Below the pieces are notes generated by a model. The model ran no database searches and was not told the DNA's origin. It saw only the letters and a list, made by a program, of their open reading frames with translations. A stretch of DNA of 64,000 bases from assembly GCF_029338555.1 (NCBI RefSeq), contig NZ_CP119989.1, positions 1,178,001 to 1,242,000 on the forward strand, read 5' to 3'. Source of the stretch: Halobaculum marinum (lineage in GTDB: Archaea; Halobacteriota; Halobacteria; Halobacteriales; Haloferacaceae). The position numbers were made by a program, and so were the translations under genes. This document shows, in pieces, positions 3,855 to 12,551 of this stretch. The first letter of the stretch is position 1. Every line of letters starts with the position of its first letter.

Positions 3855-5021
3855 ATGGATGCCCGACGACTCCTGACGCTCGGCACCGAGGTGCTCCTCG
3901 TCGTGTTCGTCGTCTCGTTGGTCGCCGGCCAGGCACTCGGGCAGCCGATCCTCCTCAGTTACGTCGAGACCGGGAGCATGGCGCCGACGATGGAGCCCGG
4001 TGACGGCTTCATCGCGGTGCCGGCGGCCATCGCGGGCGAACCAGAAGCGGGCGACGTGGTCACCTTCGAGGCCGAGGAGTTGAACGGCGGCGGCCTCACC
4101 ACCCACCGGATCGTGGGCGAGACCGACAGGGGGTACATCACCCGTGGGGACGCGAACCCGTTCATCGACCAGGACGGCGACGAACCGCCGGTGAAGGACG
4201 CCCAGATCGTCGCACACGCGCTCCAAGTCGGCGACTCCGTGGTCGTCCTCCCGGGGGTTGGGACCGGCGTCGTGGCCGTGCGCGGGGTCCTCTCGGGCGC
4301 ACAGCGGTGGGTCGCGACCACGGTCGGCAGTCGGTCGCTGCTCGGGACGCAGGGAATCGCGTACCTCGTGTTGGCCCTGTCTGCGCTGGGCTACGTGGTC
4401 GACCTCCGCCGCGGGGGCGACGGCGCGACGCGGGACCGCACTCGGTCGACGGACCGCGACGAGGGGGTTTCGACGCGACTGATCCTCGTCGGTCTCGCCG
4501 GGATGGTGGTCGTCTCGGCGACGGCGGCGATGGCCGTCCCCGGGGGGACCCAGCAGTTCGGGATCGTCAGCGCGGAGTTCGACTCGGAGAACCCGACGGT
4601 GATCAGACAGGGCGAGTCCGCGATGCTCGAGTACCGGGTCCCCAACGCTGGGCTCGTCCCGGTCCACGCGTACGTCCGCCCGGCCAGCGACGGCGTCGAC
4701 GTCGCGCCCGACCACGTGTTCGTCTCGGGACGGGCAGAGGGCCGCGTGTCGGTGACGCTGTCGGCTCCCCCGGAGACGGGGTACTACCGCCGCTACGTCG
4801 CCGAACGGCGGTACCTCGCGGTGTTACCCGAGCCGTGGATCCGGGGCCTGTCACTGGTGCACCCGTGGCTCCCCATCGTCGCCATCGACGCGCTCCTCGC
4901 TGGGAGCCTGTACGGGCTCGGAGTGCTCCTCGTCGACGGGAGCCGGATGCGGCGTCGCTCGCACGACTCCAGACACGAGCGCTCGACGCTGGTGCGCCTG
5001 TGGCGGGTCTTGTCGCGGTAG
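3855..5021 (+). CDS. ER-type signal peptidase I with extra extracytoplasmic domain
   Basis: This 388-residue S26-family signal peptidase has an N-terminal membrane helix (about 10-29). The catalytic Ser41 lies in TGSMAPTM, and His84 in THRIVG replaces the bacterial lysine, as in archaeal and ER-type enzymes. The conserved RGDAN box is at about 97-101. The peptidase core ends near residue 160. Three more predicted helices (about 164-183, 209-228 and 338-361) bracket a beta-sandwich segment (about 235-325) that is not part of the peptidase fold. The gene sits between DUF1102 substrates and a DUF5305 gene, which suggests a dedicated, SipW-like processing enzyme rather than the general signal peptidase. 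Confidence 0.92.
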   Translation: MDARRLLTLGTEVLLVVFVVSLVAGQALGQPILLSYVETGSMAPTMEPGDGFIAVPAAIAGEPEAGDVVTFEAEELNGGGLTTHRIVGETDRGYITRGDANPFIDQDGDEPPVKDAQIVAHALQVGDSVVVLPGVGTGVVAVRGVLSGAQRWVATTVGSRSLLGTQGIAYLVLALSALGYVVDLRRGGDGATRDRTRSTDRDEGVSTRLILVGLAGMVVVSATAAMAVPGGTQQFGIVSAEFDSENPTVIRQGESAMLEYRVPNAGLVPVHAYVRPASDGVDVAPDHVFVSGRAEGRVSVTLSAPPETGYYRRYVAERRYLAVLPEPWIRGLSLVHPWLPIVAIDALLAGSLYGLGVLLVDGSRMRRRSHDSRHERSTLVRLWRVLSR

Positions 5022-5069: not shown

Positions 5070-6320
5070 ATGGACGAGGCCACGCGTCTGCGCGTTCGGG
5101 CCGTACTATCGTCGTGGGCGACGCTGTTGTTGGTCGCCGCGGTCGTCGTCGGCGCACTCGGCGCGTGGGCGACGTACGGCGCCCACGTCGCGCCGGGGAC
5201 GACGACCGAGGAGCGGACGACGCAGGCGTGGAGTACGACTGCCGACTTCGACCACTCGGCGACGGTCACCCGGGAGAACCCGCTGTTCCCGGTCGGCACG
5301 GAACTGTCGAACCGCTCGACGTACTTCACCGCCGCCGCGCCGGTGCTCGACGGGACGTTCACGGTGGCGCCGCGAGGGCTCGACGGCAACGTCTCCGTCG
5401 ACCTCGCGGCGACGCTCGTGCTCCGCTCGGCGGACGAGGAGACCACCTACTGGCGGGACACGCGGCCCCTCGCCGAGTCGAGCGCCGCCGGCGCCGACGG
5501 CCCGGTCTCGCTGGCCTTCTCGCTGAACGTGACCGAGGTGGCCCAGCGCATCGCGACCATCGAGGAGGGCATCGGGACGACGCCCGGCGAGACGAGCGCC
5601 GCGGTCGTCGTCGACGCGCGCGTGGCCGGCACGGCCGACGGCGACCCGAGCAGTCTGGCGTTCTCCCGACGGCTCTCGCTCGGACTGGCCGGCGACACGT
5701 ACACCGCCACCGCGCCGGGGTCGACCACCGAGACCGTCGAGCAGACCACCACGGTCCGGGTGCCGGACACCGCGGGGCCGCTCCGATCGATCGGTGGCCC
5801 GTTCGCCCTGCTCGTCGGCGCGGTCGCGGCGGGCGGTCTGGGGTACGCCACGCGTCGGACGGACCTCGCGCTCGACGACCACGAGCGTGCTCGACTCGAC
5901 TACCTCGACGACCGAGCGGAGTTCGACGAGTGGATCGTCGCCGTCGAGTTGCCGCCCCCGGCGGACGACGTCACTGTCGCGGAGGCAGCCTCGCTCGCGG
6001 ATCTAGTGAATCTCGCGATCGACACCGACACCGCGGTGCTCGAAGCACCCGGCGAGGAACTGTTCACCGCCGTCGCGGACGACCACCGCTACACGTATCG
6101 ACCGCCGGCACCGACCGCGGACCGCGACGGCGGCGCCCTCGCTGGGACGGTGCTCGGGGGGAACCACACGGAGAACGGAGCCGACGCGACCGCCGACGGC
6201 AGTGATCCGCTGGCGGTAAACGGCGACGACCCAGCGGCGACCGCCGGCGCCGCCGACGACGGCGGCGACGACCGCGATGATCCGACGACTGCCGCGCCTC
6301 CCGACGCCGAGCGCGAGTGA
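5070..6320 (+). CDS. DUF5305 membrane protein
   Basis: The product has 416 residues with a helix near the N-terminus (about 15-37), a large external beta-rich region (about 40-235) and a second helix (about 244-262). An acidic cytoplasmic tail ends in an Asp/Ala-rich low-complexity run. This architecture matches haloarchaeal DUF5305 proteins, whose function is unknown and which recur beside signal peptidase I genes. It starts 48 nt after the peptidase gene and is probably co-transcribed. It may act as an accessory or scaffold for export of the DUF1102 proteins, which is inference. Confidence 0.8.
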   Translation: MDEATRLRVRAVLSSWATLLLVAAVVVGALGAWATYGAHVAPGTTTEERTTQAWSTTADFDHSATVTRENPLFPVGTELSNRSTYFTAAAPVLDGTFTVAPRGLDGNVSVDLAATLVLRSADEETTYWRDTRPLAESSAAGADGPVSLAFSLNVTEVAQRIATIEEGIGTTPGETSAAVVVDARVAGTADGDPSSLAFSRRLSLGLAGDTYTATAPGSTTETVEQTTTVRVPDTAGPLRSIGGPFALLVGAVAAGGLGYATRRTDLALDDHERARLDYLDDRAEFDEWIVAVELPPPADDVTVAEAASLADLVNLAIDTDTAVLEAPGEELFTAVADDHRYTYRPPAPTADRDGGALAGTVLGGNHTENGADATADGSDPLAVNGDDPAATAGAADDGGDDRDDPTTAAPPDAERE

Positions 6321-6333
6321 GCCGGCGCCCCCG

Positions 6334-6720
6334 TCACCCGATCAACAGCCGCAGGTTCAGCGCCGTCGTGAACGCGCCGACGAACGACAGCACGACCGGC
6401 GGGAGGTAGTAGCCGACGCGGTCGCCAGCGCGGGCGCTGGAGAGGCTGATCGCGAGGCAGACGCCGAACACCACCAACTTCACCGCGATCAGGCCGGCCT
6501 CGCCGAAGCCGCCGACCGCGGCGGCGATGAGCGCGTTCGCCTCGTTCACGGTGTCCGAGTAGCCGATGAGCGCGAGCGTCGTGACGATGTCGCCCACGCC
6601 GTACGTCACGGTCGCGACGAACCACAGCCGCGAGAACTCGACGGCGTCGAACGGCGTGTCCGACAGCGAGAGCCACCTCGCTGACTCGGCGGTGGTGTCG
6701 TCACCGGCGTCCGCTGTCAT
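6334..6720 (-). CDS. small polytopic membrane protein, possibly DUF5658-like
   Basis: A 128-residue protein with a hydrophilic N-terminus of about 28 residues, followed by three or four predicted helices (around 30-55, 62-80, 82-100 and 104-126). The first contains GVGDIVTT, where an acidic residue lies inside a helix, as in DUF5658-type proteins. It ends 13 nt from the convergent DUF5305 gene and lies 42 nt downstream of the HAD phosphatase gene on the same strand. No function is assignable. Confidence 0.7.
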   Translation of the reverse strand: MTADAGDDTTAESARWLSLSDTPFDAVEFSRLWFVATVTYGVGDIVTTLALIGYSDTVNEANALIAAAVGGFGEAGLIAVKLVVFGVCLAISLSSARAGDRVGYYLPPVVLSFVGAFTTALNLRLLIG

Positions 6721-6762
6721 ACCGACGAGACGGCGGCGACGGATGAAAACACTCCCGAGTCC

Positions 6763-8007
6763 TCACTCCCCGTTCAGGTCGGCGAGACAGCGCCACGCGT
6801 ACATCGTCCGGAGCACGTCGGCGGCGCCCCCCGGTGCGAACACGAGGTCGTCGGTCGCGCGGACGTGCTCCAGCACGGACGCCGAGGAATGCTCGGGGGC
6901 GGCCGCGATGCCGGCTTCGTTGTCCGCGGCCCACTCCATCACTCGGAGGTCGGACTTCGAGTCCCCCATCACGCAGACGAACGGGTCGTCGACGCCGAGC
7001 ACGTCGAGTGCGGCCTCGACGCCGGCGGCCTTGTGGAGGTCCGCCGCCGCCAACTCGGCGGCGTCCGCGCGGTACAGCGCCACCTCCAGTCGGTCGAACA
7101 GCGCGGCGGCGGCCTCGGGGACCTCGCCGTCGGCGCTCGAACCAGCCCGCTCGATTGCGCCCGCAATCTCCGGGTCGTCGTCGGCGTAGAACGCGCGCGC
7201 AGCGGCGGCGCCGTCGTCGAGGCCGAGTCGGTCGCCTGCGGCCTCGCCGACGAGCCCGAGGAGGTGCACCATCGCCTCGTCGATCACCGCCTCGGCGTCG
7301 TCGCTCCCCGTCTCGTAGTTCGGCTTCAGCGTGACGTTGAACTCGTTCCCCTGCAGGTGACAGCCGCGCCGGACGCGCTCAGGCGCCCCGCGGAGCACGC
7401 CGTCGCGGACGCGGTCGACGACGCCGCGCACGTCGTCGTCCAACTCGTCGTACAGCAGGCGTTTGGTGTCGGCGCCACTGCCGGGGGTGAACACGCCGGC
7501 ACCCGCCTCGTACACGACCGACACGTCGCCCGAGTGGACGAGTTCGTTGCCGAGCCCCTGGATGAGGAACCCCTTGACGTTCTCCAGCGTCTGCCCCGTG
7601 CAGATCACCAGCGGGACACCGAGTTCCTCGGCGAACTCCGTGAGGAGGTGGAGCGTCTCCCGTGGGATCTCGTTGTCCGTCTCGCCGGCAGAGCGGAGCG
7701 TCTCGTCCACGTCGAGGACGAGCGCGTTCGGTGCGCGGCCGTACGTGCCGTGCAGGTCGAGCGCGGTGAACGCCGACTCGCGGTCGGCCATCGCCGCGAC
7801 CTCCGCGAGTGCGGCGCCGTCGTGGTCACCGAAGGCGCGCTCGATGCGCTCGCGCCGGTCGGTCAGGTCGGCGTTGGCCTCGTCCCAGCGGTCGAGCGCC
7901 ACCCGCGAGTCCAGCGGGGGGAACAGGTCGACGAACTCGCGGTACGCGCGCAGCGTCTCCGTGTCGAACTCGCCGTACAGTTCGTACAGATGGTCGTAGA
8001 GAGTCAT
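6763..8007 (-). CDS. HAD-superfamily phosphatase
   Basis: The 414-residue product has an N-terminal helical region (about 1-90) and then a haloacid dehalogenase fold. Motif I is LVLDVDET with D99 and D101, motif II is in LVICTGQT, and motif IV is MGDSKSD near residue 373. The layout suggests a Cof or trehalose-phosphatase-like (class II) HAD hydrolase acting on a phosphorylated small molecule, but the substrate is unknown. The start at 8007 (MTLYDHLYEL) was chosen because upstream in-frame residues are Arg-rich and non-conserved in character. Confidence 0.85.
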   Translation of the reverse strand: MTLYDHLYELYGEFDTETLRAYREFVDLFPPLDSRVALDRWDEANADLTDRRERIERAFGDHDGAALAEVAAMADRESAFTALDLHGTYGRAPNALVLDVDETLRSAGETDNEIPRETLHLLTEFAEELGVPLVICTGQTLENVKGFLIQGLGNELVHSGDVSVVYEAGAGVFTPGSGADTKRLLYDELDDDVRGVVDRVRDGVLRGAPERVRRGCHLQGNEFNVTLKPNYETGSDDAEAVIDEAMVHLLGLVGEAAGDRLGLDDGAAAARAFYADDDPEIAGAIERAGSSADGEVPEAAAALFDRLEVALYRADAAELAAADLHKAAGVEAALDVLGVDDPFVCVMGDSKSDLRVMEWAADNEAGIAAAPEHSSASVLEHVRATDDLVFAPGGAADVLRTMYAWRCLADLNGE

Positions 8008-8200
8008 GGAGACGACATCGGGACACCGGGCAAAAGCACCAGCGGCTTCGACATGTACGGCCGACCGGTGTCGACGACGACGGCTCGACCGGCGAGCGCG
8101 CGGCGAGTCCCTGTCGCAGCCAGATCCCGGCAGAAGTGTCAGGCTCACCGACTTATTGCCACGAAATGTGATATTTCTGTGCGATTGTCCACTACGGCGA

Positions 8201-8212
8201 GATATTTATACG
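8201..8212 (+). promoter_or_regulatory. TATA box upstream of the LOV histidine kinase
   Basis: An AT-rich block, gatatttata, stands out in GC-rich DNA. By haloarchaeal spacing (about 27 nt) transcription would start near 8233-8236, which coincides with the ATG of a short reading frame at 8235. Confidence 0.6.
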
Positions 8213-8234
8213 GTGTCCCACTCGTCCTGCGAGT

Positions 8235-8300
8235 ATGGACCGCAGTTTGGCGGATATCTGTACTCGCGCGTACGTTCCGAGGCGACGTGATGACCGATAG
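8235..8300 (+). CDS. possible leaderless upstream ORF, 21 aa
   Basis: An ATG lies 27-30 nt after the TATA box and opens a 21-codon frame (MDRSLADICT...) that ends at TAG 8298-8300. It overlaps the kinase start at 8290 in another frame. If the transcript is leaderless, ribosomes would meet this frame first, so it could attenuate or couple kinase translation. Only its position supports it. Confidence 0.3.
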   Translation: MDRSLADICTRAYVPRRRDDR

Positions 8301-10470
8301 CGAGACGGACGCCGGCACCAGTCGCTCGCCGTCGACGGCCTGCGTGGACGCGACGCTCCGTCTCGACCAGTCGCTCTGTTATCTCGGGGTCGACGACGAC
8401 GGAGCCGACCTGCTCGGCATCGGTTCCGACGCCACGGGGACCGACGTGCTCGCACGCCTGTCGCAGTCCCCCGCAGCAGTCCGGAGCAGACTCCACGCCG
8501 CACAGGAGACCGGGCGGCCGGTGACGATACGCTGGGACTCGTCGGCCACGGGGGCCGCGGGGTGGGGGTGGGCCCGCCCGACCGACGACGGCGTCTCGAT
8601 CCTGCTGTCGGTCGACGACGGGGCGCACACGGTGGACGGCGAACGGTCGGACCCCACCGAGTCCGAGTCGGTGGTGTCCCGGAGCGCACTGCTCGAACAG
8701 ACTGAGTACCTGGCGAACACCGGTGGGTGGGAGTACGACTGCAGTCGAGAGACGATCACGTGGACCGCGGGGACCAGGGAGATTCACGGCGTCGCGCCAG
8801 AGTACGAACCGACGCTGGAGGAGGCACTCTCGTTTTACCACCCGGACGACCGAGAACTGCTCGCGAATCACTTCGACCGTGCGATCGACGACCAGGAGCC
8901 CTACGACACGGAGGCCCGCATCGAGACGGGCGGCGGGCGTCAAAAGTGGATCCGCACCGTCGGCGACCCGGTCACAGACGCCGACGGCGAGGTCGTCGCC
9001 GTCCGCGGGGCGATCCAAGACATCACCCGACAACGTGCCCAACAACAGCAGATCTCGATTCTCAAACGAGCCATCGACGCGTCGCCGGTCGGTGTGACGC
9101 TGGTCGACGTTCGACGAGACGACGAACCGCTGGTGTACGTGAACAGCGCGTTCGAGGACCTCACCGGCTACGACGAGTCCGAGGCACTCGGTCGAAACTG
9201 CCGGTTCCTCCAGGGTGAGCGCACCCGCGAAGAGTCCGTCGCGCAACTGCGCGCGGCGATCGAGGCGGGCGACGCGGCGTCGGTCGAACTCCGAAACTAC
9301 CGGGCCGACGGGACGGAGTTTTGGAACCACCTCACGATCTCGCCCGTCGCCGACGCCAGCGGCGAGATCACCCACTACGTGGGGTTCCAGACCGACATCA
9401 CGGACGCGAAGTCGCTCAGGACACAGCTACAGCAGTTCAAGCGCGCAGTCGAGAGCTCCGCCCACGCGATCTACATCACCGACGTCGACGGGACGATCAC
9501 GTACGTGAACGAGGCGTTCGAGGAGATCACTGGCTACCCCGCCGACGAGGCCGTCGGACGGACGCCGCGAATCCTCAACTCCGGCCAGATGGACGACGAG
9601 TACTACGAGCGCCTGTGGAGTGAGCTCACCGCGGGGAACTCCTTCGAGGAGCGCATCATCGACAGGGACCGCGACGGACACTTCTACCGCGCCCACCAGA
9701 CGATCTCACCGCTGACCGACGACGGAGCCGTGACGGGGTTCGTCGCCGTCCAGACCGACATCACCGACCAGATCGAACGATCCCAACAGGTCGCCGTTCT
9801 CGACCGGGTGTTGCGCCACAACCTCCGCAACGACATGAACGTCATCCTCGGGCACGCAGGCCGACTCACCGACGCGCTCGACGGCGACCTCGCCGACGCC
9901 GCGGAGGCGATCACCGATGCCGGGAACAGACTGCTCGGCATCGCGGACAAGGAGCGAGCGATCGTGTCGCACTTGAACGGGCCCACCGAGCGGACCACAC
10001 AGGACGTGGAGTCACTGGTCGACGCCATCCTCGACGACCTCCGACCGAAGTATCCCGACGCGGAACTGACCGTCGACCGCCTGGCGGGGGTGACGGTGAA
10101 CGCCACGACGCAGGTCGGCGACGCCCTCGGCGAGTTCGTCGAGAACGCCCTCAAACACTCTGGCGCCACGCCGGCGTCGGTCCGCCTCTCGGCGGAGGTG
10201 CGGCGAGAGCGGTCGGAGGACGTCGTCCGGATCTCGATCGCCGACCGGGGGCCGGGCGTGCCCGAGTCCTTGCGCCAACTCATCTCTTCGGACCGGGTCC
10301 CGGACTCGTTGACCCACTCCGACGGCCTCGGGATGTGGATCGCGCGGTGGGTCGTGACGCGGTCGGGGGGATCCGTCGACTTCGAGGAGCGCACCGGCGG
10401 CGGGACGGTGGTCCACGTGACGCTCCCCGGCGGCTTCGACGAGTCTCCCGACGCCGACCAGCGACACTGA
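8290..10470 (+). CDS. multi-PAS histidine kinase with a LOV photoreceptor domain
   Basis: This 726-residue soluble kinase has no membrane helix. An N-terminal PAS-like region (about 15-115) is followed by PAS1 (about 133-250). PAS2 (about 256-375) carries GRNCRFLQ with C304, plus NYRADGTEFWNHL, the flavin-binding signature of LOV domains. PAS3 spans about 376-495. The H-box VLRHNLRND contains the phospho-acceptor H510, and an HATPase domain follows (about 600-715, with ENALKHS and GLGMWIARW). It probably senses blue light or redox through FMN and phosphorylates an unlinked regulator, as no receiver domain or response-regulator gene lies beside it. The ATG at 8290 follows a weak gagg. Confidence 0.92.
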   Translation: MTDSETDAGTSRSPSTACVDATLRLDQSLCYLGVDDDGADLLGIGSDATGTDVLARLSQSPAAVRSRLHAAQETGRPVTIRWDSSATGAAGWGWARPTDDGVSILLSVDDGAHTVDGERSDPTESESVVSRSALLEQTEYLANTGGWEYDCSRETITWTAGTREIHGVAPEYEPTLEEALSFYHPDDRELLANHFDRAIDDQEPYDTEARIETGGGRQKWIRTVGDPVTDADGEVVAVRGAIQDITRQRAQQQQISILKRAIDASPVGVTLVDVRRDDEPLVYVNSAFEDLTGYDESEALGRNCRFLQGERTREESVAQLRAAIEAGDAASVELRNYRADGTEFWNHLTISPVADASGEITHYVGFQTDITDAKSLRTQLQQFKRAVESSAHAIYITDVDGTITYVNEAFEEITGYPADEAVGRTPRILNSGQMDDEYYERLWSELTAGNSFEERIIDRDRDGHFYRAHQTISPLTDDGAVTGFVAVQTDITDQIERSQQVAVLDRVLRHNLRNDMNVILGHAGRLTDALDGDLADAAEAITDAGNRLLGIADKERAIVSHLNGPTERTTQDVESLVDAILDDLRPKYPDAELTVDRLAGVTVNATTQVGDALGEFVENALKHSGATPASVRLSAEVRRERSEDVVRISIADRGPGVPESLRQLISSDRVPDSLTHSDGLGMWIARWVVTRSGGSVDFEERTGGGTVVHVTLPGGFDESPDADQRH

Positions 10471-10566
10471 CCCACGTCGCGTTCGTCGCAGCAGATCGTC
10501 GCTCGGCGCCGTCCGCCGCTCCGATCCCGCCGCGGAGACTATGTGCACCCGGCCCGTCAAACAGGT

Positions 10567-10692
10567 ATGGCAGACCAAGAGCAGCGGCGGGCGACCGGCG
10601 GGATGCTTCTCGTGCTCGCCGGGGTCGCCGGGTTCATCACGCTGTTGGGGATCGCGGTCGTGTGGGCGTTCGCGTACGGGCCGCTGTCCTGA
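10567..10692 (+). CDS. 41-aa single-helix membrane protein
   Basis: A short frame beginning MADQEQRRATGG continues as one hydrophobic helix and ends YGPLS. The topology is N-terminus in, with charged residues before the helix. It follows the kinase by 96 nt on the same strand and precedes the HalOD1 gene. High-GC third positions and a clean helix support it as a real small gene. Its function is unknown. Confidence 0.6.
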   Translation: MADQEQRRATGGMLLVLAGVAGFITLLGIAVVWAFAYGPLS

Positions 10693-10801
10693 GTGACGCA
10701 CGAACGACACTGGGACAGCCCTTCGCAGTCGCACGATTGTCCCAAATGGGCCGAATTAGTTCGGTGCCCAAGTGAACTGGTCAGGCCGCGTACCGGTGGC
10801 A

Positions 10802-11086
10802 ATGAACGACGTGGTAGAGACCGAACCGGACGCCGAGTGGGGGACCTGTACGCTTCGGTTCGATCCCGACGAACCGGACGCACTCGTGACTGCAGTCGTC
10901 GAGGCCACCGCGCGAGCCTCGGGAACCGATCCGCTCGCGATGGCGCCGCTGACGGATACGATCGATCCGGAGGCGCTGGGACAACTCGTCCGGACCACTT
11001 CCGCTGACTCCGTGATCACGTTCGACTACTACGGCCACGAGGTGACCGTCCGCGGGGACGGGCTGGTCACCGCCGCCGAGGCGTAG
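10802..11086 (+). CDS. HalOD1 output-domain protein
   Basis: A 94-residue protein that is almost entirely one HalOD1 domain. The pattern VVEATARASGTDPLAMAPL, then IDPEALGQLV, then a final ITFDYYGHEVTV strand is typical. HalOD1 is a haloarchaeal module often joined to or encoded near two-component proteins, with no proven biochemical role. The ATG at 10802 is preferred over an in-frame GTG at 10772, which would add ten atypical residues. Its nearness to the LOV kinase suggests a shared signalling context. Confidence 0.85.
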   Translation: MNDVVETEPDAEWGTCTLRFDPDEPDALVTAVVEATARASGTDPLAMAPLTDTIDPEALGQLVRTTSADSVITFDYYGHEVTVRGDGLVTAAEA

Positions 11087-11128
11087 TCGAACTGCGGGCG
11101 GTGATCGTGGGCTCCCCGTTCGCGGCGC

Positions 11129-11356
11129 TCACTCGTGTGTCGACGCCACGTCGTAGTCTGGGCCGTCGTCCCCGACGACGGCGACGGCCGAGGCGAGACA
11201 GCCGGCGGAGACGACGAGGCCGAGGAACACGGCGACGACGCCGAGTCCGGCGAGGATAGCGGTGAGCGGGACGGCGAGGGCGACGGTGGCGAGGACGCGG
11301 GCGACCGCGCGGTTGTGCTGGACGGTCGACGCGGGCGCGTCGGTCCGGACGGACAT
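11129..11356 (-). CDS. hypothetical two-helix membrane protein
   Basis: A 75-residue protein with two closely spaced hydrophobic helices (about 20-40 and 42-62) and an acidic C-terminus (GDDGPDYD). It is convergent with the HalOD1 gene, 42 nt away. No domain was recognised. Composition and codon use fit a real haloarchaeal gene. Confidence 0.6.
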   Translation of the reverse strand: MSVRTDAPASTVQHNRAVARVLATVALAVPLTAILAGLGVVAVFLGLVVSAGCLASAVAVVGDDGPDYDVASTHE

Positions 11357-11471
11357 GAGGAACGCTCCGCGAGGTCTCGGGATAAGTCTTCTCTGGGTAA
11401 CTTGGCGTTAGAACGGTCTTACCGCTGGAATTCGGAGGACTGAGTATCGGGAACACCGCGTCGCCGTGTGG

Positions 11472-11586
11472 CCGAGGGCTCGTTCGTCGCTTCGCTCCTC
11501 ACTCGGTGCCGATTGCCTCGATGCCCGGCTCGGGCGCGCGGCGGAGCCGCGCACACCTCGCCGCCGTCTAACCGAGGGCTCGTTCG
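11472..11586. repeat. 15-bp direct repeat pair spaced 100 bp
   Basis: The word ccgagggctcgttcg occurs at 11472-11486 and again at 11572-11586, beyond the 3' end of the next minus-strand gene. The sequence between is GC-rich with short inverted repeats and no convincing gene. It may be a decayed duplication or terminator-like sequence. Confidence 0.4.
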
Positions 11587-11600
11587 CTCCCTCCGGTCGC

Positions 11601-12452
11601 TTACTCGCCCTCGCTCGCCCCGTACTCCTTCCCCTCCCGTGCGTCCGCCTTCATCCGCCGCAGCGCCGCGACCGCCTGACTCGCGTCGTAGCCGAAGAAC
11701 ACGTCCTTCCCGTACGCAGCGGCGACCTCGGCGGCGTGGTTCAGGGAGTCGATGTCGACGTTGACGGCGTACAGTTCCACGGAGAACTCGACGTCGAGGT
11801 CGGCCAGCCGGCTCTCGAACCCCTTCGCGATCGTCTCCAGCCAGTACGTCGTCCCGTAGTGGGTGTCGTACAGCGGGACGACGAACTCGTCGACGTACTC
11901 GGCGAGCGCCTCCAAGTCCAGCCCCGCGCGCTCGTACAGGTGCCCCGGGTACGGGTCCGGGTACAGCGTCAGGTAGACGCGTCCAGGGATGCGGTCGGTC
12001 GCCTCGGCGACGAACGCCGTGATCACGTCGGCACGCCACGCCTCCCAGTCGTCGAACTCGCTGGCCGCGAACCGCTCCTCGCACCGCTCGCAGTGACAGA
12101 AGCCCTGCCGCGGGAACCCCACGTCGTCGAGGCGGACGTCGCCGTTGACGGCGGCGCAGTCCTCGACAATCTCCAGCAGGCCGCGACGGTACTCGTCGTG
12201 GGTGGGGCAGATGTACGCCCAGTCGAAGTACGTCCGGTCGCGGGTCGCCGGCTTCCCCTCCTCGTCGACCGGAACCAGTTCCGGACTCGCCTCGGCGGCG
12301 GCGTTGTCGCCGAAACACGACACCATGTTCACCGCGCTCGCGAGCGGTTCGGCCGAGCGGCCGGTCACGTCTTTCACCTCGTAGAAGCCGCGGTCGAAGT
12401 CGGGCCACTCCGTCTCCTCGGCGTTGCGGGTGACGACGCCGTACTCGGTCAT
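11601..12452 (-). CDS. uncharacterised TIM-barrel-like protein, possible glycoside-hydrolase fold
   Basis: The 283-residue soluble protein has alternating beta-alpha pattern segments such as VRLDDVGFP, RVYLTLYPDPYPG, VDEFVVPLYDT and VEFSVELYAV. A central Cys pair motif (CHCERC near residues 128-133) could bind metal. The strand-end acidic and aromatic residues resemble glycoside-hydrolase-type barrels, but no catalytic pair can be named with confidence. It stands alone on the minus strand. Its function is unknown. Confidence 0.75.
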   Translation of the reverse strand: MTEYGVVTRNAEETEWPDFDRGFYEVKDVTGRSAEPLASAVNMVSCFGDNAAAEASPELVPVDEEGKPATRDRTYFDWAYICPTHDEYRRGLLEIVEDCAAVNGDVRLDDVGFPRQGFCHCERCEERFAASEFDDWEAWRADVITAFVAEATDRIPGRVYLTLYPDPYPGHLYERAGLDLEALAEYVDEFVVPLYDTHYGTTYWLETIAKGFESRLADLDVEFSVELYAVNVDIDSLNHAAEVAAAYGKDVFFGYDASQAVAALRRMKADAREGKEYGASEGE

Positions 12453-12551
12453 ACCACGGCTTGGCCGCTCGCGAGGGTACGTGTTTCGGAAGCAGTGGTC
12501 GCGGCGGCGCCGGCCGAGCGGCCGGTCACCGCCGGCGATGCGACGCAGGTG

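Follow-up and report, generated by a model that had tools for sequence, protein, structure and literature searches.

The gene at 8290–10470 on the forward strand very probably encodes a soluble, homodimeric LOV-PAS-histidine kinase (HK) that senses blue light, with the layout of the Brucella LOV-HK and with FMN bound by its LOV domain. It lies in the window, that is, the whole stretch of 64,000 nucleotides analysed here (contig C1, 1178001–1242000). The evidence computed in this study comprises the domain order, the intact LOV pocket, the intact kinase motifs and the conservation between species. The kinase is a well-formed, expected member of a described family and is not new in kind. Its least expected feature is the PAS domain following the LOV domain (PAS3), which by sequence resembles the FAD-binding redox PAS domains of MmoS and NifL.

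Overall architecture of the kinase

The reading frame is an intact gene for a protein of 726 amino acids (aa), with the following features.

8290–10470, + strand: LOV-domain histidine kinase gene, 726 aa; ATG start in common with the orthologue of genome G109 (MTDSETDA...)
8347–8613, + strand: N-terminal PAS-like fold, residues ~20–108; model pLDDT mostly 66–73
8716–9024, + strand: PAS1, PAS_3 type, residues ~143–245; from Pfam and model
9052–9414, + strand: LOV domain (PAS2 of the earlier note), residues ~255–375; from Pfam, matches to solved structures, flavin residues, model and superposition
9199–9201, + strand: codon of the putative adduct-forming cysteine, C304
9433–9762, + strand: PAS3, FAD-like (MmoS/NifL-like), residues 382–491; proline at the position of the LOV cysteine
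9616–9618, + strand: W443 codon; in FAD-binding PAS domains this is the Falpha tryptophan (role as given in passages of PMC10468136)
9763–9978, + strand: two-helix dimerisation/phosphoacceptor region, residues 492–563; H-box LRHNLRNDM, H510 codon at 9817–9819
9991–10437, + strand: HATPase_c ATP-binding domain, residues ~568–716; N (EFVENALKHS), G1 (DRGPGVP) and G2 (GLGMWI) motifs

Pfam places PAS domains at three sites along the protein, together with HATPase_c and a weak HisKA match. The LOV domain is the second PAS domain by Pfam and the third by fold, because an N-terminal PAS-like fold, modelled at low confidence, precedes it. This N-terminal fold has no Pfam match, and a sequence comparison of the N-terminal 94 residues with solved structures returned nothing meaningful. 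The AlphaFold2 model of the kinase was built from 27 sequences and reached a mean pLDDT of 80.7 with a pTM of 0.44, at which the orientation of the domains is unreliable; whole-protein alignments to 6ph4 accordingly gave an rmsd of more than 25 Å. A Foldseek search with the whole model ranked the Brucella LOV-PAS-HK protein first among PDB entries (E 4e-28).

The LOV domain and its flavin pocket

The motif GRNCRFLQ begins at residue 301, which places the cysteine at residue 304, and NYRADGTEFWNHL begins at residue 336. The earlier note had taken these two motifs in PAS2, with C304 intact, as a LOV signature, and they are read here at exactly those residues. The PAS_9 match of this domain (E = 8.5e-25) is far above chance and is the top one of 40 PAS_9 matches in the genome. 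Similarly, LOV domains give the top matches among solved structures compared by sequence, led by one at E 1.2e-32. The LOV cysteine pattern occurs at only two places in the whole genome, one in the window gene and one on contig C2, against none for the reversed control pattern. Two further matches, to the NCBIfam photoreceptor families YtvA and BluLightHisKinLov, cover residues 256–391 and stay under the whole-protein cut-offs of these families.

The alignment shows that N285, N303, C304, R305, Q308, R321, N336, N346 and Q367 are all present. A loss of flavin-contact residues had been named in the earlier note as the observation that would overturn the LOV assignment; with nine of nine positions kept, the assignment is not refuted. 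The flavin-contact role of the N285, C304, N336, N346 and Q367 positions is our assumption from general knowledge of LOV structures. For N303, R305, Q308 and R321, the equivalent YtvA residues N61, R63, Q66 and R79 are named as flavin contacts in passages of PMC3836802.

In the model, the LOV part has a pLDDT of ~91–97 and adopts a PAS fold. LOV domains fill the top rows of the structural comparison, among them the Brucella LOV domain (Z 21.5, 0.9 Å over 108 residues) and the Meiothermus LOV domain (Z 21.4, 0.9 Å over 138 residues), and the solved LOV domains score Z 20–21.5. Collectively, sequence and model identify the second of the Pfam PAS domains as a canonical LOV domain, its predicted pocket intact.

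The kinase part

The HATPase_c match (E 1.2e-15) is above the Pfam cut-off, and the domain carries the N, G1 and G2 boxes. The HisKA match, at 21 bits, is below its cut-off of 26.9 bits. In the model, H510 in LRHNLRNDM lies on helix 492–529, which is followed by helix 533–563, as expected of a phosphoacceptor histidine. This form of the H-box is common among the relatives listed. The N, G1 and G2 boxes are kept in most orthologues, and the Natronocalculus copy departs in the G1 box. The C-terminal part is thus predicted to be a histidine kinase of haloarchaeal type, with H510 and the ATPase motifs in place. Since both the LOV and the kinase motifs are intact and the host belongs to the same family as Haloferax, the earlier description of a LOV-domain histidine kinase in a haloarchaeon stands. 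Of the 13 receiver matches that a search for a response regulator gave genome-wide, none falls inside the window.

Conservation among relatives

In a search limited to two scored candidates per genome and to E values up to 1e-120, full-length orthologues were found in 7 of the 391 genomes of the class, so weaker orthologues may be missed. The seven are the genome itself, G109, G139, G340, G261 (Haloferax profundi), G312 and G054 (Natronocalculus amylovorans). The G109 orthologue is 74% identical to the window kinase. The back-translated, degenerate GxNCRFLQ pattern is present in 314 of the 391 genomes (about 21 matches for the reversed control), a DNA match being distinct from a confirmed LOV protein.

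We compared 78 LOV segments, including the kinase's own row: the complete set NNCRQRNNQ is present in 65, and the remaining 13 depart from it at one or two positions. Because these segments were preselected for G..CR and for coverage of most of the domain, they give no measure of the frequency of cysteine loss. In the separate 22-row alignment of relatives described below, a few rows vary at flavin contacts other than the cysteine, with Ser (L155) or Asp (L164) at N303, Gly at R321 (L164) and Asp at N346 (L160 and L161). In the LOV tree, the window protein groups with the orthologues of G109, G139, G340 and Haloferax (100/96). The orthologues of Natronocalculus (L045) and G312 (L127) stand apart from the others on long branches, and the deep forks are not resolved. 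The placement of these two may reflect swapped LOV domains or a weak signal.

Every one of the 17 distinct relatives aligned across C304 retains this cysteine, a set obtained from 22 rows by merging three duplicates and setting aside two rows without coverage of the cysteine. This conservation bears on whether the LOV domain might bind flavin and yet work mainly as a redox or structural module, light being incidental. LOV flavins can be redox-active, and with three rhodopsins encoded in the genome, light responses need not run through LOV proteins. However, C304 is needed for the light reaction and not for the redox chemistry of the flavin, so a purely redox role would not be expected to keep it, and we regard such a module as improbable. 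The conserved cysteine fits the blue-light sensor kinase proposed above.

The FAD-like PAS domain after the LOV domain

By whole-sequence E value, the best solved match of PAS3 is MmoS, a redox sensor with FAD (E 9e-26), and PAS3 also matches NifL (E 1.4e-14). Furthermore, the NCBIfam family nifL_nitrog matches residues 382–503. Two PAS domains contribute to the MmoS score; the highest score of a single one is 54.7 bits, slightly less than the 60.1 bits of the LOV-type chain CagFbFP, an order that a common origin of FMN and FAD PAS domains would predict. W443 corresponds to the Falpha tryptophan and is kept in all 19 distinct relatives, obtained from the same 22 rows, as well as in the homologue of the ALovD-1 parent. 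According to passages of PMC10468136, FAD binding depends first of all on the Falpha tryptophan, an asparagine being listed as secondary. In the same work, the tryptophan is kept in only 53% of one FAD cluster and in 91 and 84% of the other two, which makes sequence alone a weak guide to FAD binding. The secondary asparagine of the NifL cluster is replaced by Asp458 in all seven full-length orthologues, own included. At this position, 12 of the other 13 distinct relatives have Asn, and L164 has Asp beside a gap. Because the asparagine is missing, we call PAS3 FAD-like and do not class it as a FAD-PAS domain.

The combination of the LOV domain with PAS3 would allow a kinase that responds to both blue light and redox state. 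The earlier note had suggested a blue-light or redox input through the LOV domain; the blue-light part agrees with the predicted pocket, whereas a redox input would sit more plausibly with PAS3. The MmoS, NifL and nifL_nitrog matches together with the invariant W443 argue for a sensor with two flavins, in which FMN in the LOV domain reads light and FAD in PAS3 reads redox state, as in NifL and MmoS, so that light is answered only under some redox conditions. Asp458, the single-domain scores and the variable retention of the tryptophan speak against it, and we consider it a real but lesser possibility. Going further, the redox state of PAS3 might gate or invert the LOV signal, making the kinase a widespread haloarchaeal coincidence detector of light and oxygen or respiratory state; this proposal is doubtful. 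A literature search on LOV, FAD-binding PAS, histidine kinase and redox returned general PAS papers only.

Among related kinases, L046–L049 and L054 carry the LOV motif in the domain that aligns with PAS3; in L046 the motif there reads GENRRFLQ and the cysteine is absent. Such an arrangement suggests that PAS and LOV domains may have been shuffled along the chain.

Proposed signalling mechanism

By analogy with studied relatives, FMN binding, adduct formation, dimerisation, a helix relay and kinase switching would be expected of the LOV-PAS-HK protein. The LOV domain would bind FMN, and under blue light C304 would form a covalent, reversible adduct with the flavin. The resulting change might pass through Q367 and the beta-sheet to the C-terminal helix 371–389 and on to PAS3. 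From PAS3, the signal would travel along the continuous helix 492–529 to the phosphoacceptor H510. Altered autophosphorylation and phosphate transfer would then reach a response regulator presumably encoded away from the kinase gene, and PAS3 possibly adds a second, redox-type input. A relay of this kind in LOV histidine kinases, from the adduct through a glutamine flip, the beta-sheet and helical linkers to the DHp, is described in passages of PMC6798134. In the model of the window kinase, helices 371–389 and 492–529 are placed as the relay needs.

Genomic surroundings

Two small genes follow the kinase gene.

10567–10692, + strand: 41-aa single-helix membrane peptide (MADQEQRRATGGMLLV...), nearly identical at the same place in G109, the only one of six loci with it
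10772–11086, + strand: HalOD1 output-domain protein, adjacent to the kinase in this species only

The upstream neighbour is a HAD-family hydrolase on the opposite strand. We set the genes around the kinase against those of 17 loci from relatives; at six orthologue loci the surroundings were inspected by eye, with Pfam run on ten of the proteins encoded there. Only G109 shares the surroundings, namely the HAD hydrolase, the 11601 gene, 12735, 13639, pyrI and pyrB, with the peptide present and HalOD1 absent, and the order HAD hydrolase, kinase, 11601 homologue is the same there. In G139 and G340 (L153 and L154), the orthologue adjoins a gene of ~206–211 aa without a Pfam match. A few genes off in L153, Pfam recognises genes for a plastocyanin-type copper protein and for cytochrome oxidase subunit II, and L154 looks similar by eye. 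At L155, the orthologue lies near purK and complex I genes. The Natronocalculus locus (L156) is the only one with a receiver gene directly downstream. We therefore rejected a conserved operon or partner, since the orthologues sit in differing surroundings and only G109 is alike, which points to a gene without a fixed partner.

The HalOD1 protein invites the view that it forms a dedicated sensor-output pair with the kinase: it carries a halobacterial output domain (E 1.3e-18) and is encoded ~300 bp downstream on the same strand. However, no HalOD1 homologue was found in the 16 kb of G109, home of the 74% identical orthologue, nor at the other orthologue loci, and the genome has 21 HalOD1 matches. 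Such a pair is thus very improbable, and, the adjacency not being conserved, the HalOD1 protein is probably not part of the kinase system. An Rfam scan of 6500–12500 for RNA elements gave no match. Elsewhere in the window, 5070–6320 encodes a DUF5305 protein and follows a gene at 3855–5021 that is of signal-peptidase type by eye.

Comparison with known systems

Passages of Losi et al. 2014 (PMC4844311) count 167 archaeal LOV proteins, with an HTH in 30% of the halobacterial ones and the remaining archaeal ones being kinases. The search pattern of that work, which is a survey only, has a single match in the window protein, at residue 285.

The closest studied case is ALovD-1. Passages of Valle et al. 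2025 (PMC12202551) report that this domain, the second PAS domain in a Halonotius kinase with three of them, was expressed and photocycles slowly up to 3 M salt; the homologue of its parent, WP_120100563, has 726 aa. We take the Halonotius aquaticus frame L139 (GRNCRYLQ, 726 aa from ATG) as WP_120100563. Like the window protein, it is a haloarchaeal histidine kinase of 726 aa with LOV as the second of three PAS domains, the Falpha tryptophan and an LRHNLRN H-box. The two proteins are 37% identical over residues 178–713 and 54% identical in the LOV domain, and the N-terminal 177 residues have no alignment. They differ in that L139 has GRNCRYLQ in place of GRNCRFLQ and Asn in place of Asp at 458. 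ALovD-1 itself is experimentally photoactive.

The Brucella abortus LOV-HK (6ph4, 6pps, 3t50) has the same LOV-PAS-HK order, and its LOV domain superposes at 0.9 Å. In contrast, it is bacterial, its overall identity is 20–22%, and the solved construct has no PAS domain before LOV. The FAD-PAS redox sensors MmoS and NifL (3ewk, 2gj3) share sequence similarity and the Falpha tryptophan with PAS3; however, only this one PAS domain of the window protein resembles theirs, and it is FAD-like by sequence, with Asp replacing Asn.

Other light-related genes of the genome

Most work on light in haloarchaea has concerned rhodopsins, although most genomes of the class contain the LOV motif. Our literature search found no in vivo function for any haloarchaeal LOV protein. 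The window kinase is a clean candidate for a LOV role in vivo, and its remaining interest lies in this and in its putative pairing of LOV and FAD-like PAS domains, which opens a light-plus-redox hypothesis.

The genome has three genes of the bacteriorhodopsin family, at 224373–225032, 2853428–2854105 and 1321050–1321679 of contig C1, all on the reverse strand. The earlier term "rhodopsin-independent" therefore suits the kinase protein itself and does not extend to the genome. A second LOV histidine kinase (L167, 5132–8452, reverse strand) lies on the 251-kb contig C2; it carries GQNCRFLQ, and its LOV domain is 48% identical to that of the window kinase. Read by eye, L167 combines a receiver-like N-terminus with PAS, LOV, GAF-like and PAS regions and a kinase with LRHNLRND.
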